From: Loxodes magnus
Taxonomy: Eukaryota; Ciliophora; Karyorelictea; Loxodida; Loxodidae
Length of the DNA stretch: 64,000 bases
Assembly: GCA_946699065.1 (NCBI GenBank)
Contig: CAMPDV010000365.1
Location: forward strand, 124,001 to 188,000
Direction: 5' to 3'
In this document: piece by piece, positions 19,934 through 53,908 of the stretch
Position numbering within the stretch: position 1 is the first letter of the stretch
How the letters are laid out: every line of letters starts with the position of its first letter
The notes under the pieces: model-generated
What the model saw: only the letters and a program-made list of their open reading frames with translations
The model's database searches: none
What the model was told of the DNA's origin: nothing
Made by a program: the position numbers and the translations under genes

Positions 19934-21826
19934 ATGTTTAAGAAGGATTATGAGATAAGTGAATCACTACAGATTTACTTAAATAAAGATCTTCATAAAT
20001 ATTAGAAAAGCAAAAGATATGCTACCACATAATATATTTTCGGTAACTTTTTTAATATAATAGGACTTGAAAACTAAGGAAACACTTGCTGAATGAATTC
20101 TGGTTTATAATGTCTAGTTCATACTGTCCCTCTTGCTTAATATTTTCAGTCTAAATAATGAAAAAAAGATTTAAATGAAGAAAATAAATTCGGAACTGGA
20201 GGCGTTTTGACAAGAAAATTTGCTAAAATTATAAAAATTACTAAGAAAGAAAGTTTTACAATTTTTTAACCTGTTGAATTCAGAAAATAGATCTCAGATT
20301 TTTCTACTTTGTTTACATAAGGAAAATAACATGATTCTCAGTAATTTATTAACTTCATTCTGGATTCTTTACACGAAGATCTAAATAAAATCACTTTGAA
20401 ACCATATTTAGAAGGACCATAAAGTAATGGGAGATCTGATGAAGAAGTTTCGTAATAATATTGAGAAAACTATCTAAAAAGGAATGATTCAAAAATAGTA
20501 GAGTTAATGCATGGGTAATTGAAATCTTCTATAAAGTGTGGTGAATGTAACGGAGAGTCAGTAATTTTCGATCCATTTTAATTATTTTGTGTAGAAATTC
20601 CTTAGAAAAGGGAAAATAAATATGAAGTAATATTTATTCCCTATAATTATTAAGAAGCAGTTAAGGAATTCGAATGTATAATGTCATCAGTCTAGCAGTT
20701 AGAAGATCTTAAAAAGGCAGTTTTAGAAAAGATCAGCTATTAGTAGCAAAATAGCATTGAATTCATATAAAATGATAAAAAGAACAAAAAAGATTCAATT
20801 TCACCTTTGAAGTAAGATTTAGGTGAAGGTACTATATATGCTTATGAAGTAAAGCAAATTACTTCAGACAGTTATAGAACAATTATTGAATTTAAGACTT
20901 TAAGTAAATAGAAGGAACTAGAAAATCAAATTTCGGTTCAAAGAAAGTTATTACCTTAATTAATAGATTTAAAGTTAGAAACTAAATTAAGTGAGCTATT
21001 CTATTTAATTTCCTAGAAATTTTTTAATAGATAAGAATAAGGCCAAGAACTGAATAAATAAGGTAACTAAGAAAATCAATTTATGATTGTATTAGTCATG
21101 GAAAAAGCTAAAGACTCAATATTAAAATGGTTGAATAAAGATAATGAAAGAGTAACCAATTTAATAAGCAATTAAAATACAAATTAGCAATTAGAAAGTT
21201 GTATGTTTTGCAATTCTAATAACTGTTTAGAAGAGCATTAAGTTTCTATGGATAATTAAGAAACAGTACAATAGCTACTTTAAACATGTAGATTCAAGAT
21301 AAAAGTTATTCTCACTAATTTTTTGATAAATAGCCTTGAGTTCAGGAAGTTTTAAAAAATCACCATTAACCTTATCAACTAATATTCTAGTGTAACACTA
21401 GAAGAATGCATAAAATTATTTTAATAGTAAGAATATCTACAAGGAGAGAATTAATTCTATTGTAAACAATGCAAAACCCATGTAAATGGAACTAAATAGT
21501 TAAGTCTTTATAAGTTACCAAAAATACTAATTATTTACTTAAAAAGGTTTAAATAAAATAATGTGCAGATTGAAAAAAACGATATGAATGTAATCTATAA
21601 ATCAGAATTAGATTTATAAGAATTTTTGCCTTTCGGATATAAAGAACATACAATATACGATTTATATGCTGTAAATATTCACTCAGGAAGTGCAAGGGGA
21701 GGACATTATTTAGCATATGCAAAAGACGGAGAAACTTGATGAGAGTTTAATGATTCACAGTTTAACTAGATAGATGACTTTTAAAGTAGTAAAGCCTATG
21801 CTCTTTTTTACCAAAGACGAGAATGA
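19934..21826 (+). CDS. Ubiquitin-specific protease (USP1), C19 family
   Basis: This is a cysteine deubiquitinase that should remove ubiquitin from proteins or chains. The ORF has 630 codons plus TGA and is unbroken under TAR=Gln, TGA=Trp. The Cys box is [20 protein letters not shown] with catalytic Cys52, and its Trp is encoded by TGA where USP2, USP3 and USP5 use TGG. Next come the GTGGVL segment, [39 protein letters not shown] (TGA Trp in a position that is usually Trp in USPs), two C-x2-C pairs of the fingers region (KCGECNGES, FYCKQCKTH), LPKILIIYLKRF, and the His box ending GGHYLAYAKDGETWWEFNDS with His591. A long, poorly conserved insert separates the two halves. The ATG chosen is the nearest in-frame one giving a short N-terminus (MFKKDYEISESL); it has no lipidation motif. 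All catalytic residues are present, so it is probably active. Confidence 0.9.
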
Positions 21827-21829
21827 TAA

Positions 21830-22671
21830 AGTTATAAATGCTATTAAACTAATAAAGATTATATTGCTGTTTAACAACTAAAATAGAATAATTTTAATAA
21901 TAAATAAGAGTATAAATACAATAAAAACTTGATAAAACAAATGTATTTTTTAAGGATGAATATAAGAATTAACCTACAAAAATATGTTTGAATGTATTTT
22001 AATGATTTAGATATTTAATTTTACTTTTCAAATTCTAAAAAATTTTCAACTGCTTTATCTATCATTTATGAAATAAAGCATTCTAACATTATAAATTTAT
22101 AATAATTGTGATGTTTAAAATAAAAATTCAATACCTTTGATGGTAAAAGTATAAAAGTGCTTTTCTTATATTTCATTTTTCTTTTTCTCCTTATAGTCTT
22201 AAAAGAAAATTTTGACTGAATTATTTTATAAAATAAATAGCGAAATTATTTTTTTATTTTATAAAGTTTTTATTTAAAAATTATGAGTAAATTACTGGTC
22301 AAAAAAAATATTATTGTAGATAAATAAAAAAAATTATTTCATAATATATAATAAGATACTAAATGTTTAACTCATATTTAAACATAAGAAATAAAAATTA
22401 AAAAAATGGTTAACTTTTTATTTTAATTTTGATTAAAATTATGGTTGAATTTAAGAAAAATTAAAAGTTTGTTAAATTTTGAAAGTCAGAACTAAAATAA
22501 ATTTTAACTATATTTTTTTATTTTCAATATAAATTGCTACTTAATCTCTAAACTATAGAAATTTATCTTGAGTTTTTTATATTTTATAATTGATTTCTTT
22601 TTTAAAACTTCTTCTATTTTTTATCTTTTTTAATTTAATTATTAGTTTTAAAATTTTTTCTATAAATAGAT
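21830..22671. other. AT-rich spacer
   Basis: AT-rich sequence downstream of USP1, up to a family A repeat. The frame of USP1 stays open past its TGA, but the reading becomes low-complexity and has no counterpart in the other USPs. Confidence 0.6.
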
Positions 22672-22992
22672 AAGATTAGAGAGCACGTATCACTTTAATG
22701 GTGAGCAGCTCTTTAATAAATATTTTAAAGTTAAATTTTTTTCGTAAATCTTCACAGTGCTAGCACTCCTTCGCCAGTCTTATCTTCTTTACCTTTTTTA
22801 TTGGAATACTCCCTAAGAGACCTTTGTATCTGCCATCTTTCATCAATAACATTACTGACACCTCTTCAATCTTTGTCTTCTCACTTGACTCTTACTAAAA
22901 TTCTTGCTAGGTTCTTCGCCAATAGATTCTTCCTGGCACCAAATCTTAAGTCAATCTCAGTTGGAAGATTGCTCCTCCCTATTTATTTATAT
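22672..22992 (+). mobile_element. Short repeat, family A
   Basis: A complete copy: left terminus AGAGAGCACGTATCAC and GAGCAGCTCTTTAA, body with TCTTCACAGTGCTAGCACTCC, right end GATTGCTCCTCCCTATTTAT. Flanks are AAATAGATAAGA on the left and ATTTATTTATATAATG on the right, which are weakly inverted rather than directly repeated, so no target-site duplication is evident. Confidence 0.75.
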
Positions 22993-24200
22993 AATGAAAA
23001 TGGTAATGAAATATAGTGATTCCAGCTTTCAATCAAGTTCAACACTATAAATTTTATATTTTTGCGAAATATTCCATTTCAAGCCTTCTTCCGCATTATC
23101 TTCTTTAATACATATCTAGCAGTATACTGCTAACCCATTTTATTAAAGGTATCACGCTTCAGTTAAGTTCCCAACCTAACATTTATTCGTTTCCTCTTGG
23201 TTGTGCTAATGCTATATCTCTTAAAATTTCACTCTCTATTCGTTTTCTTTCTGTATAATGTCCCATTTGGAGTGCATTATAGATTACTGAACAATTGCCA
23301 TAGATTTACGTTTTCTTATTATTATTTTCGTTTAAAATATATGCATTATCTTACTGTATGGCCAATTCTCCTACAATATCAGCGATACTTTATTATTCTA
23401 TAAAAAGAAAATTTTCCAGTTCATTTTTAGGTTCAATTTCCATAGGGTCGTTTATCGACATATTTCTAAGAATAAGTTTTCCGTCAAATCTCCAAATTAA
23501 ATTGAAATTTGTCCCTAATTACTCGATTCTCACATTGCTAAATATCTATTATCAATCTTTTATTCTTAGATATTAGAAATCAAGCCAGTAATTTTTCCTT
23601 CTAGCTCTCGTACGTATCGTAAAAGTTTAAATCTCTTCAATTGCATAATTTTGAGTTCCTAAAGTATAGTTTGCTAATCGTAATTTGATTGAGATGAATC
23701 CTATTTAGAAATATCTTTTGCAAGATATTTTCCATTTTTTCTAATAAAAATTATCAATCTTTTAAATGTGAAATACTATTTTATGTAATCTTTCTTCAGA
23801 AAAATAAAAAAAAGAAAATTTTTAGAAACTTAAAGTTTTTTGACGACTTTAATTTTAAGTATTGCTTCGCTTAAATAAAGACATTAATGATAGTTTTTAA
23901 TTTTTTTAAATCTCATACCGATCTCTTTATTACTCATAACTTTTAGTTTCCTTTATCTTTTTTCCCTTTTAAATTTTCTCAATTCTCAAACAATCAGAAC
24001 TTCTTAAATTAAAATCGAAAAAATATGTATTTTATTTGTATAGCTTATATTCCATTTAAGTACTTGTAAAAGTGCTTATATAGTTGCAATTATAGTGTAT
24101 GAAACATCTTATGTCTAAAATGCCATTCTTTTATGCTATTTCATTCTTTTAAATAGAATTGGTTTTACATTTTTTATATATAATTAAATAGAAAAACTCG
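22993..24200. other. Pyrimidine-rich spacer between two family A repeats
   Basis: Somewhat less AT-rich than most spacers, and pyrimidine-rich on the plus strand, which in this window often marks minus-strand coding. I found no match to the families present, and the frames carry several TGA codons. Confidence 0.45.
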
Positions 24201-24508
24201 ATTATAGAACGCGTAGCACTTTCGATGGTGCGCAGCTCTTTAAACTAATTTGATTTAAAGTTAATAAAATTTCTCCTTGGAAGTTTCCTCCAGTGCTCAT
24301 TCTTTTTGAAATTCTGTCTTCAAATATTGCATAGTTGGAATGCCCCAAGAGACCTAATCGTCTGGTATCTTTCAACAACCGTTACTCAATGCTTCCAGTT
24401 CTTTTCTTTTGGCTCCAGTCAATATTCTTGGTCAATTTGTCGCTTTTGAAGTATTTCCTAGAACTTGAGTTAAATTAATCTCAGTTAGAAAATTGCTCCT
24501 CCCTATTA
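24201..24508 (+). mobile_element. Short repeat, family A
   Basis: The left terminus is well preserved (ATTATAGAACGCGTAGCAC, then GATGGTGCGCAGCTCTTTAA) and can fold into a hairpin: AGAGC-type and GCACC-type arms pair with GGTGC and GCTCT. The right end is AAATTGCTCCTCCCTATTAAA. The body is divergent but alignable with the copies at 18.5 and 48.0 kb. Confidence 0.75.
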
Positions 24509-26350
24509 AAACATAAATAATAAAATGTTTCATAAACCTAAAATAAATTAGTCATTATCAATATAAACATGAATATTATGCCACAGAATTCTAAACAATT
24601 AAATATTGATATCTTCTCATTTTTTTTTCCAACTTAATGTGTTTTGAGGAATTAGTATAATTACCATATTATCCAGTATAATAATTAGTAGAGTTCGTTT
24701 ATTTTTAAATTAAATAGCTGAAATGTATAGGGAATTTTACATTTTCTTATTAAAGACATGCTAAATTTCTTAGACTGGAGTTGTTCTAGAATCTGTAGAT
24801 AAATATTAAAAAACAGCTAGCTTTAAGTTAATCATAGTATTGAAATGCTTTTTTCAGTTACTAATGTAAAGAAAACTTATTAATGATTGAAGAAAATCAA
24901 TGTTCTCTTATTTTACTTTGTAGTAGAACCTAAAGAATCCAGCAGACATAATGTGCTAGAAAGGTAATTACTTCAAATCTATTTAACATGATTCATTAGA
25001 AGTTGAAATAGTATCTAAAAGCCTGTCTTGGAATTATTCTATACCTGTTAATATTCTTTCAATGCTTTTTTTATTTTTTTACTAAAATTAAGAAATTTAA
25101 GGAATGAAGATTAAAAATTGTTTCATTAGAGTAAAATTACTCAAATTGGGTAAAATTATATAAAATAAAAACTGAAATAGCATTAGATATGCAAATGCAG
25201 TCTTTGTAAATAATAGTATATGTAAAATAAAGGATTCTAAAAATTATAGTTCCAAGATGATGGAATTATAGTAAATTATATATAATGGAAACTATGGGCT
25301 ACTAAACTTTTGGATTAAGACAAAAATCTTTAAATCAATGATTAATTATAAGACATGATTTTAAGTAATTATCTTAAACAAACTAACGAGCTATTTTTCT
25401 TTTATTTACAAAATAAAATGGAAATGCTATTTATAAATTTAAAAATTATAAAAAAGTATGATTAAGAATGTAATAAAAAGATTAAAAAAATAATCGAGAT
25501 AAATTACTTTATAAACTAAGATTAAAATAAGATAAAATCAAACTTTAATATTTTTTAATTTTGTTAAAACTTTATTTTTATATCAAAATATAAGAATTCG
25601 TCTCTCTTTAAAATAGTTTGATAGAAATAAAAACTTATAAAAGTGAATTAAAATTGATGATATATTGAAAAAAATAAACTCATTTATAATATTTAGACCA
25701 TATAGGATTTATATTTCATATGATTAATAATATTCGTTGAAATATTTAGTCTTTTATTACATTTCTTTTTTAAAGCATTTTTTTTATTTTCATAGAAAAA
25801 AAAAAGTTTTGAAATTAAATTTTTATGATTTTAGCATATTTTAGTTAAAAGCTATAAATAAATACTAAATGAACTTTTATAAAATTAAAATTTTTCCTAC
25901 TGAGTTTGATTAATTAACCTTGGATATTTTAGTTCGTTTTTTTCCATTTACTTGATTGATTTTTATTAACTAAATTTGATCATGAAAAGAGTAGAAGAAT
26001 TTAAATTAAAATTTTAAATAAGCTTAAAATGCTATTTTTTTGTATTTTTAATTTCAAAATTTTTAGAAACTCGATTGTATGTCTAAAAGGTATATTTTTT
26101 CAATTTATAATAAAGAAGAATATATTATATTATTTTGCTCAGTTCAAAAAATTTTGCTTTATCTTCAAATAATCATACTTTTTAATTCAGACCTAAATTT
26201 TATAAAATGTTATTTTTATACAAATAACGAAATTAATATAGCTAAATTTAAGAGATTTATTAAGGAAAATTAAAATAAATTTTTCTTTAGGATGTAAAAG
26301 TTTAATTTTTTAACTAGTAAATGTTAGAAATATTTTTAGGTTTAGCAAGA
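24509..26350. other. AT-rich spacer with one unassigned ORF
   Basis: Mostly AT-rich. From an ATG at 24569 a plus-strand frame reads MNIMPQNSKQLNIDIFSFFF and stays open for roughly 180 codons with a few TGA codons. I do not recognise it and it has no paralogue here, so it is not listed as a gene. Confidence 0.4.
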
Positions 26351-28254
26351 TCAGTTTTGCTTTTTCCTCTGATAATAAAGTGCGTAAGCATTAGAACTTT
26401 GAAAATTTTAGATACTACTTACCAAGTTATCATCAAAGCAATACCATTTTTAATCTACTTTTGCATAAGCCAAATAATGTCCTCCTCTTACTGTTCCTGT
26501 GTGAATATTCACTGCATATAATTCATATTTTGAGTCTGGATGATTCTTTGGCAGGAAATCTTTCAAATCCATTTCCTCTTCATATAATACTTCGGTATCA
26601 TTTTTTTCAATGATATAATCGTTATAATTACTATATTTAAATCTTTTGATATAAACTATAAATATTTCAGGTACTTTATAAATTTTTAAGCTTTTAAATC
26701 CATTCTAGTATATCTGGCATATCTTACATTTAAATGCATTTATCCCTTCTAAATACTCCTCTAATTATAAGCCTTTAAAGCAGTCATAAAGAGTAAATTT
26801 ATTATCATCTTTAAGTAGCTTAATTTTTTCAATACTTATGGTTTTTCTCTTTTCAAAATTCATATCTAGATTATATTAGTTTTACGAAATATAACTTTCA
26901 ATCTAAATATTCCTTTTTAGAGAAAATCCAGTATTGTTTCTGATGAATTTTACGTAATTTAATGGCCTTTCTCGCAGTTTTAAGAACTACAAAAAACGCA
27001 AAATTATGTTTTGTTTTATTATTAATTTAAAGGTAACTATTCTTTGTTAATCTAATAAATGATAGAATTTTGATCGTTTTCAGCAACTAAAAATATTTCA
27101 ATGTTCTCATTAATTAAACTTTCTTTTTCTTCTTCTTCTTCTTTTAGATAGGAAAAATATTAAGAATTAATAACTTAATCAAAAATGGGATATTAATCAA
27201 TTTATAGATCTATCATTTCATATCAATATAATAAATCTTTAAGATTGCAATAATCATTGCTCAGTAGGTCTGGCTAGTTTTGGAACTGAATGAAAGTTCT
27301 GAAAATTTTTTAATTTTAGGATTAAATTTCATAAGCTTAAATAAAGATTTATTTTTCATTACTTGGAAAATTTTTTAGAACTTAGTAAGTCTTAAAATCG
27401 TTTTTCTCATTTCTTCAAATGAATAAAATATTTTCTTTATTTTCAAACCGAATCTGTTCAAAAAATATTTCTTTTAAATTTTCTATATTTTAGTGAGTCA
27501 ACAAAGTTATTTTTAACTTATAAATAGAATCTTCAAATTTTTATGGGAAATATGTTATTTCAAAGTCTTAATCTCTCTCTTTAGGTATTTCTACACAGAA
27601 TAGTTAAAAAGGATCGAATATTACTGATTCTTTCTCGCATCCCTCACATTTCAAACTTGATTTTATTTGTCCGTGCATTAACTCTACTATTTTTGAATCG
27701 TTTCTCTTTAAATATCTGTCTCGACATTCTTAAGCAACTTTATCATCAGGCCTTCCTTCACTTTGCTATCTTTCTATATAAGGTTTTTCTGTTATTTTGT
27801 TAAGATCTTCATGTAAAGCATCGAGTAGGAAGTTAATAAATTGCTGAGAGTCATGCTAATTTCCTAAAGTGAATTAAGGAGCAAAATCTAAGAGTTTATA
27901 TCTGAAACTAGAGGGATTGAAAGGGGATTACTGTGAGTTAATAGTAGAGTGAATAATATTAGCGAACTCTTAAGTCAAAACTCCTCCAGTTCCAAATTTA
28001 TTTTTAGTGTTTAAATTATTTTCTCATTGAGTTGATAGAAAGTATTCAACAAGAGGAGTTGTATGTAAGAGGCATTGCAAGCCAGAATTCATCCAACAAG
28101 TATTTCCTAAATTCTAAAATCCTACTAATCTTGAAGTATTCATATAGTTTTTTTGGTTTTCATCTATTTAATTAACAATTTCTTTAGGTTTCTCTCTTTT
28201 TTAAGAAGCTTCTTACTCTTCTTAGCAGCATTATGAAATACATTGAGATCCCAT
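26351..28254 (-). CDS. Ubiquitin-specific protease (USP2), with one 20-nt intron and likely lipidated N-terminus
   Basis: This is a C19 deubiquitinase of 627 codons plus TGA once a 20-nt intron (26866-26885) is removed. The N-terminus MGSQCISQCCQEEQEASQKR has Gly2 and three nearby Cys, as in proteins anchored by myristate and palmitate, so it may sit on a membrane. The Cys box is [17 protein letters not shown] (Cys53), followed by [38 protein letters not shown], fingers Cys pairs (KCEGCEKES, FKCKICQIY), VPEIFIVYIKRF and the His box GGHYLAYAKVDQKWYCFDD (His586). The last codons are YYQRKKQN then TGA. TGA also codes Trp internally. From the Cys box to EIPK it is almost identical to USP3 and USP5 in DNA, while the rest differs. 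All catalytic residues are present. Confidence 0.88.
26866..26885 (-). other. Probable 20-nt spliceosomal intron in USP2
   Basis: On the minus strand the segment starts GTAAAA, contains CTAAT and ends TAG. Removing it joins the two reading frames of USP2 exactly (KVIF then HMNFEKRKTI) and makes the total coding length divisible by three. USP1 and USP4 have continuous sequence at the corresponding point after their KVI-like segment. The alternative is a frameshift. Confidence 0.65.
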
Positions 28255-30837: not shown

Positions 30838-32562
30838 ATATAATAAAATATTATGCAAATTCAGATTCATCTCAATTCAAATAGGTTCTTCTTTCGGTTA
30901 TATCAAACACACATAAGATTCAATTTTCTGTTTCTCTGTACAATACCATCTATATAATACTTACCAAAGACTTGAAAGGATTAGATCAGAATAGAATGAT
31001 TTCACCCTCAAAATTAAAAGTTTCATAATCTCGTTAATATTCAGTATTAAATGTGCATCTCCGCTTACTTGAATACGAACTACCAGAGTCCACAATCAAT
31101 TCCCAGTCAAATTCCATTTTTATAATGTAAATTAAAAAAAATTATTTTTTTGGAGTTGAAAACGTTCCATAAATTAAGTATCCTGCTTAAGCGAAAATTT
31201 TTTAAGTATATCATAAATAATTTATATTAAAATATTTAATTTTGATTTCTTAAAAAAAAAGCAAAAAAAGTTTTCAGTTAGAAATAAAAAATGTTTATAA
31301 AGTATAAAAAAAGTACAAAATAGAAAAGAAATTGATTTTGATTTAAAATATTATAAAAGAAAATATAAACAGAGACAAAAAATAAAATTCCTTTTATTTA
31401 ATATTTTTAATAAATATTTCAATCAAATTTTCTTTTTTAATGATATTCAAATTATTAAGAAACTAGTTTAATAAACGTTAAAAGTTTTAAGGGGCTCGAT
31501 TGAACTGGATAAAAATTTATAATCAATAAATTCATTTAATTTCAAATAAAATTTAGCCTGAACATTTATATTTTAACTAAACGTATCTAATTATGAAAGT
31601 AATCATATAAAGATGATTTCACAATAAGTAAAAGAGATTGATTATAAAAGTTAATTTATATACTTATTTGGATTTTGATAATTTTATGAATTTAATCATA
31701 GTTAAGATTTTAGATGGTAATAGTACTGGAAAAATATTTATTATTACAGAGTATAAAACTTGGCTATTGTGGAAGCGAAAAAAGTAATTAAGAAAATCTT
31801 AAAACAGTAGAGTGCTTATTCAAGGAGGTCTACTTAAAATTTTTAAGCACAAAACGAATTTAATAAAACGAAAATTAAATTGGAGTTTATAAGAAACTTT
31901 GGAAATCTAAAATTTAAAATAAGCAGGACTCATTTAAAATTCCTTTTCTTGCTATCCCTACTATAACTGTTAATCAAAATCGAGAGTCCACATAAAAGCC
32001 ATCATAATTTTACAAAATTGAGATAAAAAAGAGTTGTAGTAAAATAATTTAATATATATGAAGCATTAAATAAGTATTTAACCATATATTTATAGTGTTA
32101 CAAAGGATGCAATATTCCTGATATTTTACTATGATAATTGAAAAAAATAAAAAGCATTTTCAATAAATATTTTTTCTTTCAATAAAAGCAAACAAAAAAT
32201 CAGAAAACTTGCAGAAAGAAGGAAATAGAAATTTATTAAACTAATTTTTAAATCACAAAAACGCAAAATTTGATATTAATGATATTCCTCAATTCCGAGA
32301 GAATGAAATTCATGAAAATGAATCTTGCTATTTCATGAAAGATATAGTGCTAATAATTATTATTCGTAGTATAATTTATAAAATAATCTAATTATAATTT
32401 CTACTTAATCTAAACATTAAATGTAGACTGTATAGAAGCTTTGATTATTTTTATTATATAAATTATAAAATAATTTTATTATTTTACACTTTTAGTTGAT
32501 TTATTTTGTAATTTTATATTAAATGCATTTAAGGAAAAAATTTATAATTGTTTAAATCATAG
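30838..32562. other. AT-rich spacer with one weak short ORF
   Basis: AT-rich sequence upstream of USP3. A plus frame from ATG 31714 to TGA 32059 gives 115 codons (MVIVLEKYLLLQSIKLGYCG) with no recognised family. No repeats were seen. Confidence 0.45.
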
Positions 32563-34524
32563 ATGCACACAGAAGAGCATAAAAGAAAAGAATAAAAAGA
32601 TGGATAATAGAAGAAATAGAGTGAAGATTGAAAAAAGGATATTTAAACATGTTAGAAAGATTCAAGAGATAAAAGCTAAAATTATTTAAGTGACTAAAAT
32701 ATTATTTCTAGTCAATTAAGTCAACTTGGAATGAAAAATTTAGGAAATACTTGTTGGATGAATTCTGGCTTGTAATGCCTCTTACATACAACTCCTCTTG
32801 TTGAATACTTTCTATCAACTCAATGAGAAAATAATTTAAACACTAAAAATAAATTTGGAACTGGAGGAGTTTTGACTTAAGAGTTCGCTAATATTATTCA
32901 CTCTACTATTAACTCACAGTAATCCCCTTTCAATCCCTCTAGTTTCAGATATAAACTCTTAGATTTTGCTCCTTAATTCACTTTAGGAAATTAGCATGAC
33001 TCTCAGCAATTTATTAACTTCCTACTCGATGCTTTACATGAAGATCTTAACAAAATAACAGAAAAACCTTATATAGAAGGATAGCCAAGTGAAGGAAGGC
33101 CTGATGATAAAGTTGCTTAAGAATGTCGAGACAGATATTTAAAGAGAAACGATTCAAAAATAGTAGAGTTAATGCACGGACAAATAAAATCAAGTTTGAA
33201 ATGTGATTAATGCAAGAAAGAATCAGTAATATTCGATCCTTTTTAACTATTTTGTGTAGAAATACCTAAAAAAAGTGATAAAATAGAAGAAAAATGAAGT
33301 GAAGTGACATATATTCCTTATGAGACCGGAGAACCAATATTAAAATTATAAAATGTACATAAAAATAGCAAAGATTAATTATAACAAACAATAGCCTTAT
33401 AAACGATAAACCAATGTAAAGAAAACATTACAATAATCGAACCCATGGAGGGAAATAGTTTAGAAAAATTTAAACCTTAAAATTCTTAGCAAATTAATTT
33501 AAATTAAGATGTAGCATATGCTTTTCAAGAAAATACAATCTAAATACATTATAGAACTGTTATATATATTGAAAAAATTAGAGAAAACTAAAATTTATTT
33601 GCAAAAATTTTACGTTATTGTAAATGTAAAATCAGGAAATAATTACAAGAATCTTTAATAGTATTTGATTTTAAGAAATCTTGAAATATAAAGTGACTGC
33701 ATAAAAAAATATTTAAACACCTGTTTAGATGTAAAACTTAAAATGAACAAAATTTGAATAAGCTTTTTGAAATAAAATTCATAGCTGTAAAAAGTGCAGA
33801 TTATTCAGTTTAGTAATCAAGCTAAAAATTAAGTTCGAAACAATAAAATATAAAAATGACTGATCAAAATTAAGCTTATTAAAACTGTGTTTTCTGTAAA
33901 AATAAATGTATAGATGGGCATATAGAGCAAAGAAATATAAAAATAGAAAAGCTTCTTAAGTCGAGTCTATTTGCAATAAAAGTAAATTTTCAGAATTTAC
34001 AAAACGAATTATAAACTTTTTTATCTAGATAAATTATCCGAGAAGATTATAAATAATAATAATAAAGCATCAATAATAATCTACATTAGTAAACTGAACT
34101 TTATGATTGCTTCGAATATTTATAATAGGAAGAATTGTTGGAAGGATTGAATTAGTTTTACTGTAAATCTTGCAAAACTCATGTAAAAGGAAAGAAATAA
34201 TTAAACCTTTACAGAGTGCCTTAGATATTAATAGTTTATTTAAAAAGATTTATATAAAATGGTTATCAAATCTAAAAAAATGACTAAAATGTTTTATTTC
34301 CTTAATAGTTAGATCTTAAAAAATTTGTACCTGAAAACTATAAAGGTTCTACAAAGTACTAGCTCTATGCAGTTAATAATCACTCAGGAAGTGTATGAGG
34401 AGGTCACTATTGAGCCTACGCAAAAGTTGGAGAGATTTGGTATGAGTTTAATGATTCACATGTGAGTGAAATAAAAGATGTTCAAACTAAGAATGCTTAT
34501 GTACTTTTCTATCAAAGAATCTGA
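32563..34524 (+). CDS. Ubiquitin-specific protease (USP3), intact
   Basis: This C19 deubiquitinase has 653 codons plus TGA in one frame. The N-terminus is charged and Gln-rich (MHTEEHKRKEQKDGQQKKQS) without lipidation signals. The Cys box is [20 protein letters not shown] with Cys64 and a TGG Trp. It is followed by [53 protein letters not shown], finger Cys pairs (KCDQCKKES, FYCKSCKTH), [12 protein letters not shown], and the His box GGHYWAYAKVGEIWYEFNDS (His615), where the Trp after Tyr is TGA. The residue just before GGHY is Trp (TGA) where other copies have Arg (AGA), a likely one-base change. Nucleotides about 32733-33272 are nearly identical to USP2 and USP5. An extra C-x2-C plus His pair (NCVFCKNKCIDGH) lies before the second half. 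It is probably catalytically active. Confidence 0.9.
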
Positions 34525-34885: not shown

Positions 34886-35760
34886 ATGAGAGGATTCAAA
34901 GCGGGATTCTTAGCGGCTTCAAAAAGGCAGGAGTTAATGACATCGGAGAGAGACTAGGACCAGGAAAGGGTACCAAAAAAATCATCCATCAGGATGAGTT
35001 ATCATTTCTGAAGAAAAGCTTAGGATATAGGCTAAAAATATAATGTGCTCAGAAGTCTTCAATCTAACCACATAATAGTAAATAATCTACGATTAGCTGA
35101 TTAAAGTGGTGCTGGACCTTCAGGAAGAGATCAAAAAGTTGAAGAAAGAAATAAGAAGTTAAATGAAAAACTGTAACTTGCAGAGGAAATAGAATCAAGA
35201 CTCATAACCTAAGAAGAGACCTATACTCATTTTGAAATATTTCAAAAGATCAGAACAATTAATCATAATACTAACAATAGAAGCAGAAAGAACTAGTCAA
35301 CAAAATTAGAAAAAGTAGAAGAAAACAAACAAAAATTGCAGCGCTAAATGGACCTACAAGTATAAGGAATTATCCAATGATAATCGAAGGAGAAAAAACT
35401 CAAGATTTAAACCTAAAAGAAAATCGAAAAAATGCTAACATTGCAAATCTCGAACACATATGTGGAAAAGATGTAAGAAATTTCAAAACTTTAAATAAGA
35501 ATACTGAAAGTACTAGAAGAAGTCAGAAAATAGAAAAAGATAAAAAAAACTAAAAAGAGAAAGAGAAAGATTATATTGCAAAAAATTTGGAAAAATATAA
35601 AAGATCAAAGATACCGATCGTTATCTAGGCGAATGGATATCTCAGTGATAATATACATAGCTAGGAGAAGAGATGTAGAGACATTTAGATTTTTATATTT
35701 AGCCTCCATAGCAATCTAGAGGTTGGTGGGAATGAGGCTGAAATACTCCAAGAACGCCAA
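34886..35760 (+). CDS. Coiled-coil CCHC zinc-knuckle protein (family D, copy D1)
   Basis: The gene starts MRGFKAGFLAASKRQELM and aligns along its length with the minus-strand copy at 60.6 kb. In order: a charged N-terminus; HFWRKAQDIGQKYNVLRSL, where the Trp is TGA but TGG in the other copy; SGAGPSGRDQKVEERN; a coiled coil (KLNEKLQLAEEIESRL); then, in a second frame, a basic run and a classical C-x2-C-x4-H-x4-C knuckle, KCQHCKSRTHMWKRCKKF, near 35.45 kb; and a conserved tail LYCKKFGKIQKIKD...YLGE ending near IQPPQQSRGWW. One frame change between coil and knuckle is needed; it may be a frameshift or an unrecognised short intron. The layout is that of Gag/ORF1 nucleic-acid-binding proteins of retroelements, but no polymerase is attached. 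Confidence 0.55.
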
Positions 35761-37230: not shown

Positions 37231-37493
37231 AATATATAAAAATTTTATAAATGGAGTAAAAGTAAAATTTCATAGATGTAGTATCCTAAATAGATAGCAT
37301 AGAAGAAAAAAATAAAATTTATTAGAAACATAATTCATGCACTTGAAAATAAATTTCTCAGAAGAGTGGAAAATAAGAAGATTATAGTGTTGCATATTAA
37401 TAAATAGATAATGCAAATCAAGAGAAAAAGAGTATAAAAATAGAATAAGTAAAGTAAAAAGAAACACAAAAGTTGGAAGAGACTCATATAAAC

Positions 37494-39428
37494 ATGGAAA
37501 TATAAAAGAAAGATTTATAAAATAAAAAACCAAGTGAAATATCAAAAATAAATAAGTAATTATCTAAAAAGAAAGAAAATAAAGCTAAAGCCTAAGTTAA
37601 ATTATAGAAAGAAAGTTAAAATAAAAATACTTCAACCAATTAATAGAATAAAATAAATGCCACTACTGAGTTTAGTTAGTTTAATATATAAACTAACCAT
37701 TTAAGTTTAGTAGGGTTATAAAACTTGGGAAACACCTGCTATATTAACTCTTCTTTATAATGTCTCCTTCATACTTCTCCTCTAGTAAAATACTTCCTTA
37801 CAAATCAATGAAAATAAGATATAAATATTCACAATATTAATGGAACAAAAGGAATTCTCACCAAAGAGTTTGCTAATTTAGTCTAGCAAACATTCAATCT
37901 AAAATAGACTATTTATCATCCTATCAATTTCTATAAAAAGCTATTAAAAATCGCTTCTTAATTCACTGTTGAAGGTAAACATGATTCCCAGTAATTTTAA
38001 ACTTATTTACTCGATATTCTGCACGAAGATTTAAATAAAGCAACAATTAAAACTTTTGAAGAGAAAGAAGAGAGTGAAGGAAGGGCTGATGAAGTAGTTT
38101 CATAAGAAAGTTGAGAAAAATATCTTAAGAGGAATAATTCGAAGATAGTAGATCTAATGCATGGGTAATTAAAGTCATCTCTGAAATGTCAGTAATGCAA
38201 CTATAACTCAGTTACTTTTGATCCTTTTTAACTCTTTTGTCTCGAAATTCCTAATAAAGTTATGAAAAAGTTCCAAGTGATTTTCATACCTTAAAAGTTT
38301 GAAAATTAAATTCAGTAGTTAGAACTAGAAATGCAAGTAATTTCTAGAACCGATAAATTATCAGAAATAGTGGCTTAATGTTATGGAGTGGAAAAATAGA
38401 ACCTTTTACTTTTACAGGGAGATAGTGAAAATAATATTTAATATTTTGAAGATTTAGGAGAATATTTAACAGAAATAAGATCAAATAATATTTATGCATA
38501 CGAAGTAGAATCATATGAATAGAAAAAATATAGAACCTTCATAGAGTTTTAGCAAGAACTGAAACAGTATAGATTACAGTGTAAATAATACTATCGCAAG
38601 TAAGGAATGAGTGAAATAATTGATATAGACAAAGATATGTCTACAGAAGATTTTTAAAAGTGAATAAATTAAAAATACTTACAGCAATTTTAACTTCAAT
38701 AGATTGAATAAATTTAATAGGTAATGTAAATAAAAATAATCGAAGAATAAAACTCAATTATTGGAGTATTTAATAACTAAAAAAATAAAAATAGTCAAAG
38801 TGAGAAAGATGCTTAGTCTTCAGATAGTAAATAAGAATATATGCTAGATATGAACTTAGCATTATAGTACTTTATGCAAAGATGAAATTTTACAGTAAAA
38901 GTGATTTTTAATAAAAATGTATAGAACATAGAAAACATTTTTAGTAGGAGGAAATATCCATAACCAAAACAAAATATTTCTTTCATGGAAAAGAAAGAAA
39001 TAAATATATATGATTGTATAAGATATTTATAGATGTAAGAAGATTTAGGAAATGAGTTTTATTGCTAAAGATGTAAACAATATGTTAATTGTATAAAATA
39101 AGTCTAGATATTTAAGGTAGCTGAAATTTTAATAGTCTATTTAAAGAGATTCAAATTTAAAAATAGTTATATTGAAAAGAAGAAAAGGAATGTTGATTAT
39201 CCACTAGTTTTAGACTTGAAATAATATTTACCTGAGAACTATAAAGAATCAACGATATATGAACTATATGGAGTGAATATACATTCAGGAAATTCAAGAG
39301 AAGGACATTACTGAGCAAGTGTGAAAGTAGGCGAAGATTGGTTTAATATAAATGATTCTTGGATAGAAAAATGTAAGCAAATATAGAATGGAAATGCCTA
39401 TGCATTATATTATGAAAGAAGAAAATGA
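37494..39428 (+). CDS. Ubiquitin-specific protease (USP4), most divergent copy
   Basis: This C19 deubiquitinase has 644 codons plus TGA in one frame. The N-terminus is basic (MEIQKKDLQNKKPSEISKIN). The Cys box is LVGLQNLGNTCYINSSLQCL with Cys82 and the commoner Tyr after Cys. Then come GTKGILTKEFANLVQ, KHDSQQFQTYLLDILHEDLN, SQESWEKYLKRNNSKIVDLM (TGA encodes the Trp of the family's conserved Trp-Glu/Tyr-Leu motif), fingers Cys pairs (KCQQCNYNS, FYCQRCKQY), [12 protein letters not shown] and the His box REGHYWASVKVGEDWFNIND with His605. The Trp in GHYW is TGA. The gene ends ALYYERRK-stop. Unlike USP2, 3 and 5 it does not share the near-identical catalytic tract, so it is an older relative. Catalytic residues are complete. 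Confidence 0.9.
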
Positions 39429-40226: not shown

Positions 40227-40231
40227 AAAAT

Positions 40232-42184: not shown

Positions 42185-44466
42185 TCAATTAGTTTAAACT
42201 AATTTTTTCTTAAATTATATTTAAATTTTTTTTAATATTTCAGTAAATAAATTAAATAAGCAGAGTTATAAAATAAATTTTTCAGCTTTAGAAGAAATAG
42301 ATTTAATCGATGCTAGAACACTTTAATAAGTTTCAAAGGCATCTTTTAAAAGTTTTTTCTTAGTTAGTTATCTAGCTAACTACTTTATGAACTTTAGTTT
42401 AAAATATTTTAGATATAAAAATGCTAATATCGCATTTTAGTACTTTTGCTTCAATCTATATATTATATTATTAATGCAATAAAAAAGCTGTTAATTGATA
42501 AAATTTGTCTTTTAAATGTCAATTCTTTCATAGTAAAGTGCGTATGCATTTTTGCTTTAAAATTACTAGCATTTTTAAGCTATTGAATCATCAAACTTAT
42601 ATCAATCCTCTTTAACTTTTGCATAAGCTCGATAATGCCCTCCTCTTGAACTTTCTGAATGAACATTCACTGCGTATAAGTTATAATATATAGGTTTTTC
42701 ATTTTTCTTGAGTAAAAAGTCATTTAAATCTATTTTCAATGGATATTATACATCTATTTTATTCTTTTAGATTTCTTATCCTACTTACTTAAATCTCTTC
42801 AAGTAAACTATTAATATTTATGGTATTTTGTAAAGGCTTACTTATTTACTTCCATTCACATACATTTTACAATTCTTACAATAAAACTTATTTTCTCCCT
42901 CTAAGTATTCTGTTTTCTGGAAAAATGAGAAGCAATCTTATAGTGTAACCTATGAACTTAATTGTGAAAAATTCTATAGTTAAACATTTTACGTTTCTCT
43001 AAAATTAAAAATATCTTTGTTACTATCAAAAGAATCACATAAAATGATTCTTATCTTGAAGCTTCTAGATTCTTATTAAATTTCTTTTATTTTTTTATTT
43101 TCATCTTCGATTTCCACTATTTTACTGTTTTCCTCTTCTTAAAATTCTCAGAATCTAACATTTTCTTATTGGATATATTTATTTTTTTTCTCCGTTTGAT
43201 TTTTATTTCCTTTCTAATCTCTTTAGTTTAAGCTTAAAATTATAGAATTTTCAGATTAATCAGTAACTATAGATATTTAAAAAGGATAGTATTTTTTCTT
43301 TTAGTTTTTTATTTAATTTCTAAAATATCGAGATTGGATATCTTCCTTCAATTATTTTATTGTCATTTTTAAATTTAAATCTATTATTTAAGGTTCTTAT
43401 TTTTATTTTCCCTACATTCTATCAAATTCATTTGATTTTAATTAAAATTAAAATTCTAGAAATGTTCTATAGCTGTCTTTACTAAGAGGTGGTATTTCAT
43501 AAGCATATATTTTATTTTGATTTATATCATATTATTCTTGATTTCTTGCTTTTATAGAATGTTCTTATAACTTTCTGCTTCTTAAAATTAGAATTTAATT
43601 TTCTTTCTTTTTGCTTCTAAATTATTACTCTAATAGCTCTTGGAGAATTTTATCACTCTCTATCTAACATATTTATCCTTTTTAAATTGAATTTTCAAAC
43701 TTTCAAGGAATAAATGCTATTTCATAATTTTATTTTTACTTTTTAGGTATTTCTACACAAAATAGTTAAAAAGGATCGAATATTACTGATTCTTTCTTGC
43801 ATTCCTCACATTTCAAACTTGATTTTATTTGTCCGTGCATTAACTCTACTATTTTTGAATCGTTTCTCTTTAAATATCTGTCTCAACATTCTTAAGCAAC
43901 TTTATCATCAGGCCTTCCTTCACTTGGCTATCCTTCTATATAAGGTTTTTCTGTTATTTTGTTAAGATCTTCATGTAAAGCATCGAGTAGGAAGTTAATA
44001 AATTGCTGAGAGTCATGCTAATTTCCTAAAGTGAATTAAGGAGCAAAATCTAAGAGTTTATATCGGAAATTAGAGGGATTGAAAATGCCTTTCTTTTTAT
44101 TAATAGTACGTCTGATTATTTTAGCGAACTCTTAAGTCAAAACTCCTCCAGTTCCAAATTTATTTTTAGTGTTTAAATCATTTTCTCATTGAATTGATAG
44201 AAAGTATTCAACAAGAGGAGTTGTATGTAAGAGGCATTACAAGCCAGAATTCATCCAACAAGTATTTCCTAAATTCTAAATTCCTAAAATAAAATAAAAA
44301 ATTTACCTATTATGCTTAAAGAATTTTTTTCTGGGCTGGATAAACTAAATGAGCCTTATCTTCAGGGTTACCCTCCTCGTCTTTCTTTTTTATTCTATTT
44401 TGAACCAAGTAAAGGAGAATTCTCGCTACTAGATTTATAAACTTATGTTGTAGGGCAGCAACCCAT
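42185..44466 (-). CDS. Ubiquitin-specific protease (USP5), 23-nt intron, lipidation-type N-terminus, C-terminal extension
   Basis: This C19 deubiquitinase has 752 codons plus TGA after removal of a 23-nt intron (44284-44306). The N-terminus [17 protein letters not shown] fits myristoylation at Gly2 and palmitoylation at Cys3/Cys4, so membrane anchoring is likely. The Cys box [18 protein letters not shown] has Cys62. Then come [54 protein letters not shown] (Trp from TGA where USP2/USP3 have Arg from CGA), Cys pairs ([18 protein letters not shown]), [12 protein letters not shown] and [20 protein letters not shown] with His603. Where the other USPs stop (YYERI) the frame stays open for another 106 codons to TGA at 42187, which may be a real extension or stop loss. 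The catalytic tract is nearly identical to USP2 and USP3. Confidence 0.85.
44284..44306 (-). other. Probable 23-nt spliceosomal intron in USP5
   Basis: On the minus strand the segment starts GTAAAT, is T-rich and ends TTTTAG. Splicing gives LSIIGIQNLGNTCW, matching FNIIGLENQGNTCW of USP1 and LSLVGLQNLGNTCY of USP4, and makes the coding length a multiple of three. Unspliced, the upstream exon is out of frame with the Cys box. Confidence 0.7.
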
Positions 44467-45525: not shown

Positions 45526-45678
45526 AGTTTTCCAAATTAAATTAATATAATAAAGTATTTTTATATTTAATTTATTATACAAATATACTACTTTTAATTT
45601 TAACTTCTGGTTCCTTTTTCCTTTCTTGATTGCAAATTTTCTATAACTTTTAGATATAATTTTAACATTTTTAGTAAA

Positions 45679-49118: not shown

Positions 49119-49691
49119 AGTTTTTTTAATTAAAAATTAAATGAATATATATATAAAAAAATTGGATCACTTATTTGAAAATTATAAAAGGCTCATATAT
49201 TAAGCAAAATTAAGAAAATGGTAAAATTAAAATAAAAAAATATAATTTTAATTAAGATTAAAATAATTAATTGAATACTTTAAATGAATAATAAAGTTTA
49301 AGTTTGAAGTAAATAAATTATTTTAATCATTTTAAAATCATATAAAATAGGCTATTTTAATCAATCTAACTATTATATTAATTTTAATTCATTATTTCAA
49401 ACTTTATTTAAACTTAAAAAATTTAAAATTGATAAAAAATCATTTTTGAGTGTATAATTATAATTCTTTTTAATAAAACTCATTTGAAGAAAATATCCAT
49501 ATTTATATTTTTTTGGCAGTCTCAATAGTATTATTTTAACAATAAAGCTTTAATAAATTCTAATTTTTGTCTGAATGAAGTATAGTATCATAATAATAAT
49601 TTTGATATACTATTTTTGAAATAAAAAAAAGATTATTAACATGAAAATAATTTTTTAATTATAAGAAAAAGTTTAAATTAAATTAAATTAA
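49119..49691. other. AT-rich spacer
   Basis: AT-rich; nothing recognised. Confidence 0.6.
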
Positions 49692-50135
49692 GTGTTAAGG
49701 AAGGGACTGTTATCTTAATAGATGCCTACCTGATGTGTGTTAAGTGCACATCATCACTAATCTTTTCTTCTTGTTTATGTCTTTTTGGGCTTTCCTATCG
49801 TCTCGCCTGGACCCATTTCTCGGCTTTATAGGCGAATATCGCCATCCAGTCCGTCTTCAACTGGCAGAAACCGTCGATCTGCCTAGGTAGCTCCTAAGAG
49901 GTGGAGAGATCACTCCAAGGCGGCACCTTGGTCTGAGTTAGTAGGAGGTGTAATTGAGTCCCTTAGTTGGGAAGTCCAAGAATGAATGCACCACAGAGTG
50001 CACAAGTTATTGAGGGAAGGTATTTAAGCCTTTCTGTGGCTTATTTCTCAGCACGGGGGATTGCATCTTCATCGCAAGTCCCTTTAAACCTGCTGAAGGT
50101 CCCTTGTGCATCTCAGGTCCCATTTCCACCCTCTT
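49692..50135 (+). ncRNA. GC-rich block with at least eight perfect hairpins, candidate structured RNA
   Basis: This block stands far above the surrounding AT content. Perfect stems, left to right: GATGTG/CACATC (49732/49747), GGCGA/TCGCC (49831/49839), GGCAG/CTGCC (49863/49879), GGAG/CTCC (49903/49913), CCAAGG/CCTTGG (49915/49926), TGCAC/GTGCA (49987/49998), TAAGCC/GGCTTA (50025/50038), and an outer TCAGCA/TGCTGA (50048/50091) enclosing GGGATTGC paired with GCAAGTCCC around one bulge. Two of the stems overlap by two bases and would be alternatives. So many local stems suggest a folded RNA such as a long non-coding RNA gene, an SRP- or RNase P-like RNA, or a structured repeat. I could not match it to a known class. 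The minus strand is also open (MGPEMHKGPSAGLKGLAMKM), which is weak evidence in a code with one stop. Strand is a guess. Confidence 0.45.
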
Positions 50136-50530
50136 TAATTTAAATTATAAGAAAAAGTTAATCTTATAAATTACTTTTATTTCATATAAACTAAATTAAT
50201 TTTTTTCTTTTTCGTTATAAAATATCAAAGTTTCTAAATAAAGAAGATATAGTCAGAGCGTACAATAGAATTCCTTATATGGATAAGATTAAAAATTTTA
50301 TTTGTATTTATAAATATTATTTTGAAGTAGTCATTAGCATCTTTCTTATTACATAAGCTCTTTCTGGTTATTTAAAAACGCAAAGTATAAAGGTTAGCAG
50401 AAAAATTCCTTTTCATTATAAGAAGTTTTAATTTGAGAGAATTATGGAAGTTTGTTTCAATCTTTTTTACTTTATAAATTAAACTAACGTGGCTTAACCA
50501 TTATTAGGTAAATAGGATACTTTTTGAAAA
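50136..50530. other. AT-rich spacer
   Basis: AT-rich; no recognised feature. Confidence 0.6.
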
Positions 50531-50800
50531 TGGATTCATGGCAGGTTGCGTCTCTTACAACTACAAGAACAGTGGTCACATATCACCCCTTTTCAGATCC
50601 AAGGCAAAATAACTGCCACAACTGAAGATTATTCCGTTTCAGGTTCATAAACCAAAACATTAGAAGACATAGTCAATTATGGATTCTTAACATCTCAACC
50701 TATGATGAAGTTATTCTTCTCTTCATCCCTCGATTGATGGCTTAAATTTCTTCGTAGGTTCCACCCACAAAAACAATCTAGCATGGGAATCTCCATCTTA
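50531..50800 (+). repeat. Family C-related segment without terminus
   Basis: GGCAGGTTGCGTCTC and CAACCTATGATGAAGTTATT align with the family C bodies at 19.2 and 45.3 kb (GCAGGTTGCATC; CGACCTATGATGAAG). The shared hairpin terminus is missing, so this is a truncated or ancestral copy. Boundaries are approximate. Confidence 0.45.
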
Positions 50801-51485
50801 ATTTTTTAAATATATTTAATTAGAAACATTTTAAATAATTTTAAAATTTTAATTTTTATATTTTGTTTGTGCTTTTACTTATTTATAAATAAGTCTAAAC
50901 ATCTACATTAAAAAAATAATATCTCAAAAAGCTTGAAAAAAGTAAACTTAGTTTTTAAACTTTTTAAGTATATTTCTTTATAATTGTTTACATAATTATT
51001 AATTTAAATTTTAGTGTTTTACTTAATATTTTTAACTTTAGATAGAAAATAGCTGTAATAGTTTTCAGTATAATATTATAATTTAATTTATTTATTTTCT
51101 AAAGTTTTTTAAAATTATATTTCCAGACAAAAAATTCATTTTCTTTTGCATTTAAATTATTTTTTTCCACATTCTTTATTTTTTTAATTTCCTTTATATT
51201 ATCAAAGCAGCAAGATAAATTAAAGTCATCACTAAAATTGCTATTATCTTAATTCTTATCCTTAATTTATAAACTTAGATCTCCTTAGTCTTAAATTCTT
51301 TAAAATTTAGCTATCAATTAATTTTATTTTTCTTCGTGCGTAAGTTTATTTATTTACTCCAGTCTATCATCACTTCTTTACTTAAGGTATATCATGATTT
51401 TTTAAAGTCATTTCGATACTTTATTTATGGCATTTATTTATTAATTTTAAGTTTATAAAGAAAAAGGTATAATTATCTTTGTAAA
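50801..51485. other. AT-rich spacer
   Basis: AT-rich upstream region of the RING-kelch gene; no promoter motif recognised. Confidence 0.6.
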
Positions 51486-53006
51486 ATGGAGGTTTAAGGA
51501 ATTCCTTCATGCAAAAAATGCTAAAATCCATTTAATAAAATCCGTCGCGTTCCCATTAAGCTCCTCTGTTCGCATACTTACTGTAAAAATTGTATTTTTG
51601 ATTATTTCGAAAAAAACTAGCAATATTAGTGCTTCGATTCGTAGTGCAATAAAGTGTGATTCGATCATCCATCTAATTTATAAAAAGATGAGCGAATAGA
51701 GCAGATGTTAGCCTAAAAATAAAACTAGCCTTAATAGATTCAAAATCCTGCAATGGACTATGAAAATTTTAAGTAAGGAAACAGGAAATTGATTCAAAAC
51801 ATAAGCAAGATTTAGTCATCTATTATCGCTAACTAGTTCAAAATGATTAACAAAATACTATTTAATGAAAGCATTACTTTTATTCAATAACTAGAGAGAT
51901 CTTTCAAAAAAGTTTAAGAAAATACTCAGAAATTTTAATTTTTATCTAACTCATCCTAATAAGCACCAAGACGAGATATTTAAGATTAAATAAATCAAAT
52001 TTATTTGAGTGCTATGAAAGAAATGCAAGAATTTGAAGTTCAAGGAAAGTTCTAGCTTAAAAAGCTAACTAATTTAAGAGATCATTTGGAGTAAAATCTG
52101 GAAGTATTTCTTTAGACAATGGGTAGTTAAAGTAATATATTAATGAATAATGTTTAAGAAAATAGAATCTTAAGTGAATAATAGCAACCTCAAGTAAGAG
52201 TTAAGTAAGAATAGCAAAAATCTAGATACCATAATATTGCAAGTATTTCCACATTTATAACTAACTCTGTTAATAAAAAAGATTATATAATATAGGAAAG
52301 AAAATTCAAAAAATCTTAAGTCAATATCTTGAAAATGGGAGATAATGAAACTTAAATAGAGTAGATAGGTGAATAAAAAATCCTGACATCAGGAGGTTAA
52401 GATGCAACAAGTAAAAGGTTTAGTCTGTTTGATAACGGAAATGTAAAGGAAAACAACATGAAAATAAGTAGAGGAGATCACAAAACAGTATGGAATCATG
52501 ACAACATAGTATATATTATATCAGGTAGATTTAGTTACCAGGATGTTAAAGAATGTGAATCATTTAATTTGCAAAATTCTACTTTTTAGTATATAAATAC
52601 CATTCCAAACCCTGTCGCTGTATTTGGAGCTTTTTTAGATGATAAGTAAAGTATTTATGTTTTTGGTGGTAACTATAATTCATAAGATATAAACAAAATT
52701 TAAGTTTACGACTGCTCAACTAATAAATGAAGTTTATCCAGTTGTATTTTGCCTGAAAATACAAGAAGTGCTGCTAGTTTCGTACATATGTGCAACGCAG
52801 GACTAGTTTACCAAAATGGGAGCGAAGAAATAGATACTTGGATATTTGATTTTAAGTAAATCACAAAGCATGGAAAAATGTTTGAAGGTGAAACTTATGT
52901 ATACACCTAACCAATAGCAAAAGAGAAAAATATTTATTAGTATGACTGTAATTCTGATTTATATCTATACGAACTAAATCAAGCGGACTGGCAGAAGATA
53001 GCTTGA
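51486..53006 (+). CDS. RING finger-coiled coil-kelch protein, likely E3 ubiquitin ligase
   Basis: The gene has 506 codons plus TGA, unbroken under the inferred code. Residues 9-54 form a RING finger of C3HC4 type: C9-x2-C12, C28-x-H30-x2-C33-x2-C36, C49-x4-C54 (LLCSHTYCKNC is the centre); the last pair is spaced wider than the usual x2. Residues about 80-250 are Gln/Lys-rich and helical, consistent with coiled coil as in TRIM-type ligases. From about 330 to the end there is a kelch part: IVYIISGRFS, IYVFGGNYNSQDINKIQVYD followed by NKW (Trp = TGA), FDFKQITKHGKMF and ELNQADWQKIA-stop. The kelch part is homologous to the RING-less kelch-like family in this window, including the distance from the last Trp to the TGA stop. 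RING domains usually recruit ubiquitin-charged E2 enzymes, with the kelch part binding substrate; that role is inferred. Confidence 0.8.
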
Positions 53007-53291
53007 GACTAAAAAATAAAATACTTCAAACTTCATTTTATTAAACTTTATATTCAAAACTTTAAAATTTTTCAGTTTGATACTAAATTTGATTTCAAAG
53101 AAACTATTTAATTATTATTCATAAAAGTTCCTTTAGATATTATAAATTTATTTTGAGTTGATGACATAACTGAGATGTCAAGTTGTTAATATAAAAAATT
53201 ATTTTTCTTTTTATGATAGAAAATAAAAATAAAATTAGTTATGTTTTAAAAATCTAATGAAATGTTATTTTTTTACATAAAGTAAAAAAAA
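53007..53291. other. Short AT-rich spacer
   Basis: AT-rich gap between the RING-kelch gene and the CCHC gene; nothing recognised. Confidence 0.6.
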
Positions 53292-53908
53292 ATGGAGAGT
53301 TGGAACAAAGGTTTTCTTATCGAAAAGATTACTCGTAATACTACTGATCAATCTTTCTAAAATTAACAAGCACCAACTAAGATTTAAAAGAAAAAATATT
53401 GCTAAATATCAGAAGAAAAATAACTACCTGCAAAAATTCCTAAAAAGAGACATACATTTAATCAACTAATGAATTTAGACAAGGAATAACTCATGGAGAT
53501 TATTTTGACTACAGTGATAAAGTCGAGAATCTCGAGCATTATGTTATCAGTTTATAACAAGATTTATAAGATCATGTGGACGATGAGAAGCCACACACTG
53601 AATTTGTTACAAAATAGGATATTAATAACAGATATCAAGAAATAGAATGCGATAGTGCTAGACTAGATGAATAAATGGGAATAGATTTTTAAAAATATGA
53701 AAATGCCTTTTACCAAGTTAAAGAATTTAAGCAAATGTTAGAGAAATTAGAGAGATAATAGCCATAAAAAAATCAAGATTCAATGATAATAGAAGAACAA
53801 CCCATGACTTAAGAAAAATACTTCAAAAAAAAGTGCTACATATGTGGCAGTCAATATCATCTTTGAAGAAGATGCTAGGGAAATAAGGAAATTAGAAAAA
53901 AGATTTGA
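53292..53908 (+). CDS. CCHC zinc-knuckle protein (Z1), one frame change
   Basis: The ATG frame gives MESWNKGFLIEKITRNTTDQ and a Lys-rich stretch (PAKIPKKRHTF). From about 53460 another frame reads TNEFRQGITHGDYFDYSDKV, an acidic helical segment (NLEHYVISLQQDLQDHVDD; VKEFKQMLEKLERQ) and a C-x2-C-x4-H-x4-C knuckle KKCYICGSQYHLWRRCQGNK near 53.84 kb, then stop TGA at 53906. The Trp in HLWRRC is TGA; D1 has TGG in HMWKRC. Start and stop differ by two bases modulo three, so one frameshift or a short intron of 17/20/23 nt is required; a 17-nt GT...AG segment right after codon 6 would fix the frame, but its 5' site is poor. It is likely a nucleic-acid-binding Gag-like protein. Confidence 0.5.

Follow-up and report, generated by a model that had tools for sequence, protein, structure and literature searches.

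What do TAA, TAG and TGA mean in a ciliate genome where all three lie in frame within conserved domains, and which of them still end a gene? We addressed this question in a window of 64,000 nucleotides from Loxodes magnus (bases 124,001-188,000 of one contig, CAMPDV010000365.1, assembly GCA_946699065.1), which holds five USP deubiquitinase genes (PF00443), one Kelch gene and CCHC-bearing frames; genome-wide searches covered the assembly of 705,730,643 bp in 7,843 contigs. Loxodes is reported to use NCBI table 27 (PMC11441545). From the raw letters of the 64 kb, the original prediction arrived again at this published code, taking UAR (UAA and UAG) as Gln and UGA as both Trp and stop, and further held that every alignable gene end is TGA and none is TAA or TAG. 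A masked alignment of USP genes upheld the first part; TGA as the only stop did not hold, with a minority of genes apparently ending at TAA, one of them in the window. UAA looks like a minority second stop, and we consider it probable that two stops carry a dual meaning, UGA (Trp/stop, the main one) and UAA (Gln/stop, the minor one), with UAG fully sense; the code would therefore be intermediate between that of Condylostoma and table 27.

The meaning of the codons within genes was read from 32 aligned USP genes (four from the window and 28 from elsewhere, drawn from 111 genome matches listed) in which TAA, TAG and TGA were masked. TGA scored as Trp with +259 bits (runner-up Phe, -6.5), TAA as Gln with +137 bits (runner-up, -19) and TAG as Gln with +110 bits (runner-up Lys, +47). 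Sense-codon rows (such as TGG, CAA and AAA) cannot serve as controls, since each column profile excluded every codon equal to the one under test. Two Trp columns are nearly invariant, one with 13 TGA and 17 TGG and the other with 8 TGA and 24 TGG, and in three conserved Gln columns TAA and TAG made up 25/32, 22/30 and 14/30 of the Gln codons, the third column being mixed. Judged from these columns, both UAR codons specify Gln, and UGA specifies Trp, within genes. The claim that TAA and TAG fall throughout conserved domains also agreed with the domain matches: when read through, four window USPs match PF00443 with E values of 1e-45 to 3e-57, and the fifth copy does so at 1.5e-27. An unsupervised hidden Markov model for the end codon, trained on the window alone, gathered GC-richer codons and recovered no stop. 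The USP genes of the window are listed below; the TGA/TGG pair in the Cys box was found where it had been placed.

19748..21826, plus strand: USP gene (PF00443) with in-frame TAA, TAG and TGA; its Cys-box Trp is TGA at 20090, and it ends at TGA 21824-21826 (19748 marks where a coding-potential segment begins rather than an initiation codon)
26351..28254, minus strand: fifth USP copy, ending at TGA 26351-26353, with a frame break near 26.9-27.0 kb that is an intron or a lesion
32557..34524, plus strand: USP gene whose Cys-box Trp is TGG at 32755, ending at TGA 34522-34524
37359..39428, plus strand: USP gene ending at TGA 39426-39428
42512..44269, minus strand: USP gene with in-frame TGA, TAA and TAG, whose alignable C-terminus is followed by TAA 42512-42514

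Gene ends were then read in five families with fixed C-termini, 157 in total (20 dynein light chains, 20 histones, 20 E2 enzymes, 50 actin-family members and 47 USPs). TGA closed the gene where expected in 18 of the 20 dynein light chains fetched (of 21 matches; L094 and L095 are identical), 18 of the 20 histones (of 31 matches), 19 of the 20 E2 enzymes (of 150 matches) and 48 of the 50 actin-family loci (of 96 matches). The E2 count includes L165, whose terminal TGA is reached only beyond an extended tail that contains another TGA, and L163 is ambiguous; in the actin family, many loci are array copies of one gene, and ten ends were judged by eye. Among USPs, 53 ends were read (five in the window and 48 elsewhere), six of which were excluded for long C-terminal extensions; in the remaining 47, TGA occurred four to ten codons after the LFY motif in 35, and no TGA occurred within 13 codons in 12. 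By these counts, UGA is a stop codon, found at the expected ends in all five families sampled. No end relying on TAG alone was found among the 157.

TGA therefore dominates, but given the TAA-ended minority in these families, the statement that genes never end at TAA was wrong. Four of the five window USPs end at TGA; the fifth (42512..44269), which is one of the 12 USPs without a nearby TGA, has its next in-frame TGA 109 codons beyond the TAA, at 42185-42187. Outside the window, TAA ends were seen in L074, L075, L129 and several USPs. The two actin-family exceptions, L074 and L075, have TAA immediately past the residue expected to be last, and TGA follows in frame 23 and 40 codons further on, respectively; we take both to be ARP1-like. 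The H3 variant L129 has TAA-TAA-TAA at its end, with no TGA in the fetched stretch, and in histone L126 a TAA precedes a TGA located five codons downstream; in both, the TAA lies at the codon where the H3 variants L127 and L130 have TGA. The dynein exceptions are L087, with TAA followed by TGA two codons later, and L097, which runs on.

Whether these TAA codons terminate translation was judged from their position and from paralog conservation. A TAA within eight codons was present in 9 of the 12 TGA-less USPs, versus 7 of the 35 that end at TGA (Fisher p = 0.001). Amino acid identity between paralogs fell at the TAA from 71% to 17% in the pair L008/L104 and from 60% to 6% in L074/L075, and control pairs ending at TGA fell across the end from 74 to 17%, 97 to 3% and 94 to 20%. 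The pattern suggests that the TAA ends represent real termination in vivo.

Codon usage just upstream of the ends bears on the same question. Over the final 20 codons before TGA in 24 USPs, TAA:CAA was 3:25, versus 425:164 in the gene bodies (p = 6e-11), and TAG:CAG was 7:1 versus 174:70 (p = 0.45), indicating no clear avoidance of TAG. The Gln codon right after the LFY motif was CAA in 20 cases, CAG in 3, TAG in 2 and TAA in none. In the last 17 codons of 53 dynein, histone and E2 genes, we counted TAA 4, CAA 11, TAG 14, CAG 12, TGA 0 and TGG 23; taking as baseline the USP bodies (TGA:TGG 62:54), which are different genes and not the bodies of these genes themselves, p was 4e-4 for TAA, 0.07 for TAG and 2e-7 for TGA. 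A scarcity of in-frame TGA ahead of the terminal TGA, which had been suggested as a check on the code, is thus visible in these 53 genes. USPs cannot gauge it, since in their last 20 codons TGG (0/480) is as absent as TGA (0/480, p = 0.08). For Loxodes, UGA and UAA were reported to be depleted within about 20 codons before the stop, and UAG not; the part of that report dealing with transcripts likewise describes no UAG depletion (PMC11441545).

The tRNA for Trp and the release factor were examined in the assembly. A tRNA-Trp(CCA) pattern occurred at 125 places and the reversed pattern at none; among the 100 places listed, 48 lie on C67, 51 on C148 and one, which looks like chance, on C12. ARAGORN calls the C67 copies tRNA-Trp(cca). 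The anticodon stem reads ATCGA/TCGAC on C67 and TTCGA/TCGAC on C148, so that pair 27-43 is broken (A27.C43 or T27.C43) and the stem is therefore of 4 bp, as in all 24 distinct genes read (13 on C67 and 11 on C148). A counterpart with a UCA anticodon, sought with one exact pattern only, was found at 3 places versus 2 in the control, which is chance level. A tRNA-Trp with a 4-bp stem is known to promote read-through of UGA, and papers citing Swart et al. report one for Loxodes (PMC13092985, PMC12005148). As to their arrangement, the genes form head-to-tail arrays at C67:482323-491198 (units of about 187 bp) and C148:155464-169180 (about 241 bp), which hold 99 of the 100 places listed.

The release factor eRF1 was read from L120; a second copy, of nearly equal score, lies on that contig too. 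Aligned with an eRF1 chain of solved structure, L120 carries the substitutions E55A, T58R, S60Q (turning TASNIKS into RAQNIKS), S70A and Y125F, with GTS and NIKS kept. These positions presumably follow human numbering. The motif names in PMC12153298 are consistent with this. An eRF1 altered in this way may recognize UGA and UAA but not UAG.

The codon meanings, the TGA and TAA ends, the avoidance of TAA (and, in the other families, of TGA), the tRNA structure and the eRF1 substitutions are features read directly from sequence. Their best joint explanation, which we hold with fairly good confidence, is that the window is ordinary macronuclear DNA of Loxodes magnus, or of a very close strain, using a karyorelict code. 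UAA and UAG would be decoded as Gln by default, and UGA inside genes would be decoded as Trp by a tRNA-Trp with the ordinary CCA anticodon and an anticodon stem of only 4 bp. Close to the mRNA 3' end, UGA would act as stop; UAA, which is avoided there as a Gln codon, would also stop translation and terminate a minority of genes, and UAG gives no clear sign of termination there. Sense would thus be the default, and termination a context override near the transcript end, for UGA and, less often, for UAA. We infer that proximity to the end of the transcript decides for stop and against sense. An override of this type has been proposed for Condylostoma and Parduczia (PMC4967479), and Loxodes 3' untranslated regions are described as short, with a median of 41 bp, and 93% of its introns as 25 bp or less (PMC11441545).

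In strict table 27, UGA would be the sole stop, and the apparent TAA ends would be pseudogenes, genes with longer C-termini or genes that reach a UGA through a 3' intron. The dominance of TGA ends in every family read fits this, as does the 94% BUSCO completeness obtained for L. magnus with a gene finder using UGA as the only stop (PMC11441545). Several of our own results also weigh against UAA as a second stop. When the 9 of 12 USPs with a nearby TAA are compared with the TAA rate in their own AT-rich downstream DNA, the excess reaches only p = 0.05; some of the USPs without TGA could have longer tails or unspotted 3' introns, and L019/L026 and L108 could be degenerate copies within arrays. 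Before their ends, seven USPs that end at TAA shift away from TAA less strongly (TAA:CAA 4:7 versus 140:45, p = 0.009), and the TAA pair L001/L002, unalignable without gaps and 6% identical on both sides, is uninformative. GAA is also rarer near USP ends (7/480 versus 474/9000), because a conserved motif fills that stretch, and since USP paralogs share ancestry, the p-values are too small. Conversely, L001, L002 and L008 rank within the top eight USPs by score; the TAA of L129 stands where L127 and L130 have TGA; conservation drops at the TAA in the two informative pairs; and the avoidance of UAA before TGA stops is not required by UGA-only termination. A code in which UAA is never a stop does not appear to match these gene ends, and we regard strict table 27 as unlikely, while giving it some weight.

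A Condylostoma-like code, in which all three codons, UAG included, are dual, would agree with the behavior of UAA, with a TAG just before the TAA at the end of L001 and with the somewhat low TAG:CAG ratio of 14:12 in the 53 non-USP genes (p = 0.07 versus 174:70 in USP bodies); this ratio, which leaves room for a weak TAG avoidance in those genes, also tells against a UAG that is sense throughout. Yet no TAG-only end occurred among the ends read, TAG is not avoided before USP ends, and UAG depletion is absent from the published transcript data as described in PMC11441545, so that we consider such a code very improbable. The Tetrahymena code (table 6), with UGA as stop only and the in-frame TGAs as pseudogenes or assembly errors, would account for TGA ends being the rule, but not for TGA in nearly invariant Trp columns in 13/32 and 8/32 genes, nor for a tRNA-Trp whose 4-bp stem has been tied to UGA read-through (PMC13092985); a code in which UGA is never sense is refuted by the masked alignment, and we give the Tetrahymena explanation next to no credence. 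The Blepharisma code, in which UAR codons are stops and not sense, was rejected: TAR fills Gln columns and most ends are TGA.

Compared with known systems, the code closely resembles the karyorelict code of table 27 described for Parduczia and Loxodes (PMC4967479, PMC11441545), with the same UAR as Gln, UGA as Trp or stop, and TAA avoided before the stop; it differs in that a minority of genes here appear to be UAA-ended, whereas the 2024 Loxodes gene finder permits UGA only (PMC11441545). With the Condylostoma magnum code (table 28) it shares a UGA that is Trp or stop via a 4-bp-stem tRNA-Trp(CCA), context-dependent termination and a dual UAA, but here UAG has no clear stop role and UGA dominates as stop. 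The nonstop code of Blastocrithidia also involves a 4-bp-stem tRNA-Trp(CCA) and an eRF1 changed at Ser70, to Gly there and Ala here (PMC12153298); there, however, UAR is Glu and UAA the stop, whereas here UAR is Gln and UGA the main stop. The same source notes that in karyorelicts and Condylostoma reassigned stops double as genuine stops, and in the part concerned does not single out UAA in Loxodes (PMC12153298). The 2024 Loxodes paper has three mentions of UAA, all of them concerning its depletion ahead of UGA stops (PMC11441545). A literature search for UAA-ended Loxodes genes, based on partial texts, found no such paper. The code and its tRNA are already published, and the quantified result of a minor UAA stop is a refinement of known biology. 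The Seah 2022 abstract is said to state that a small minority of transcripts may use UAA as a stop. If UAA also terminates, annotation limited to UGA stops overruns the real ends of genes in a measurable minority, and the UAA entry of NCBI table 27 would have to become Gln/stop. UAG and UAA generally go together, and Loxodes may be a natural example of the two differing in whether the release factor still recognizes them.

The other genes and frames recognized in the window are listed below. They include the two further TGA/TGG pairs of the original prediction, in family D and in the CCHC knuckles, both of which lie as placed.

34916..35726, plus strand: family D copy with similarity in two frames and a CCHC knuckle at 35433 (TGG at 35463); TGA at 35009 in HF-TGA-RK
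51600..53006, plus strand: Kelch-domain gene with read-through TAR codons, ending at TGA 53004-53006; its N-terminus is Cys-rich and, judged by eye, RING-like
53294..54076, plus strand: CCHC-knuckle frame; the knuckle at 35.4 kb has TGG at the position filled here by TGA (53864)
59912..60585, minus strand: second family D copy, in two frames, with TGG in HL-TGG-RK near 60.49 kb (H at 60498)

For family D, no Pfam family was found, with weak matches below the cut-off only. The family is dispersed, with a third copy at L119:13-320 adjoining a Dom34-like gene, and it may be ORF1 of a retrotransposon. The Loxodes genome has been described as rich in LINEs (PMC11441545).

USP genes are clustered both in the window (20-44 kb) and elsewhere (G000:C365:7486-76930, C1431, C1234, C4067 and C3033), and a second USP type of about 335 aa occurs elsewhere on the contig of the window. 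The Kelch gene lies near the USP cluster, as do weaker Kelch fragments at window positions 3592-4257, 10630-11103 and 61042-61944, and this USP/Kelch neighborhood is possibly a fast-evolving cluster of ubiquitin-related genes. Rfam and ARAGORN scans of the window gave no match. The first part of the window (1-10000) has a G+C content of 16-21%, versus 22-29% in the remainder, and little coding signal. A GC-richer, palindrome-like repeat of about 67 bp, AGAGAGCGCG...GCAGCTCTTT, has ten listed copies in the window, in both orientations:

18486, 22662, 30408, 44810, 45304, 47942 and 40565, 41778, 49060, 58553: copies of the ~67 bp repeat

Gene arrays are also present elsewhere in the genome. About forty near-identical actin genes stand in arrays on G000:C266, C711, C707, C524, C1162 and others (L029-L058). 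ARAGORN, run on 47 loci, found only tRNA-His, in five actin loci, where the gene lies about 1.1 kb from the scanned actin copy. An E2 (UQ_con) array at C32:80272-102824 comprises 31 head-to-tail repeats of a 716 bp unit and one partial copy. A tRNA family search returned 63 matches, mostly of one score; a 73-nt match of one score recurs, partly in tandem (units of about 527 and 1,753 bp), on C78, C103, C158 and others.

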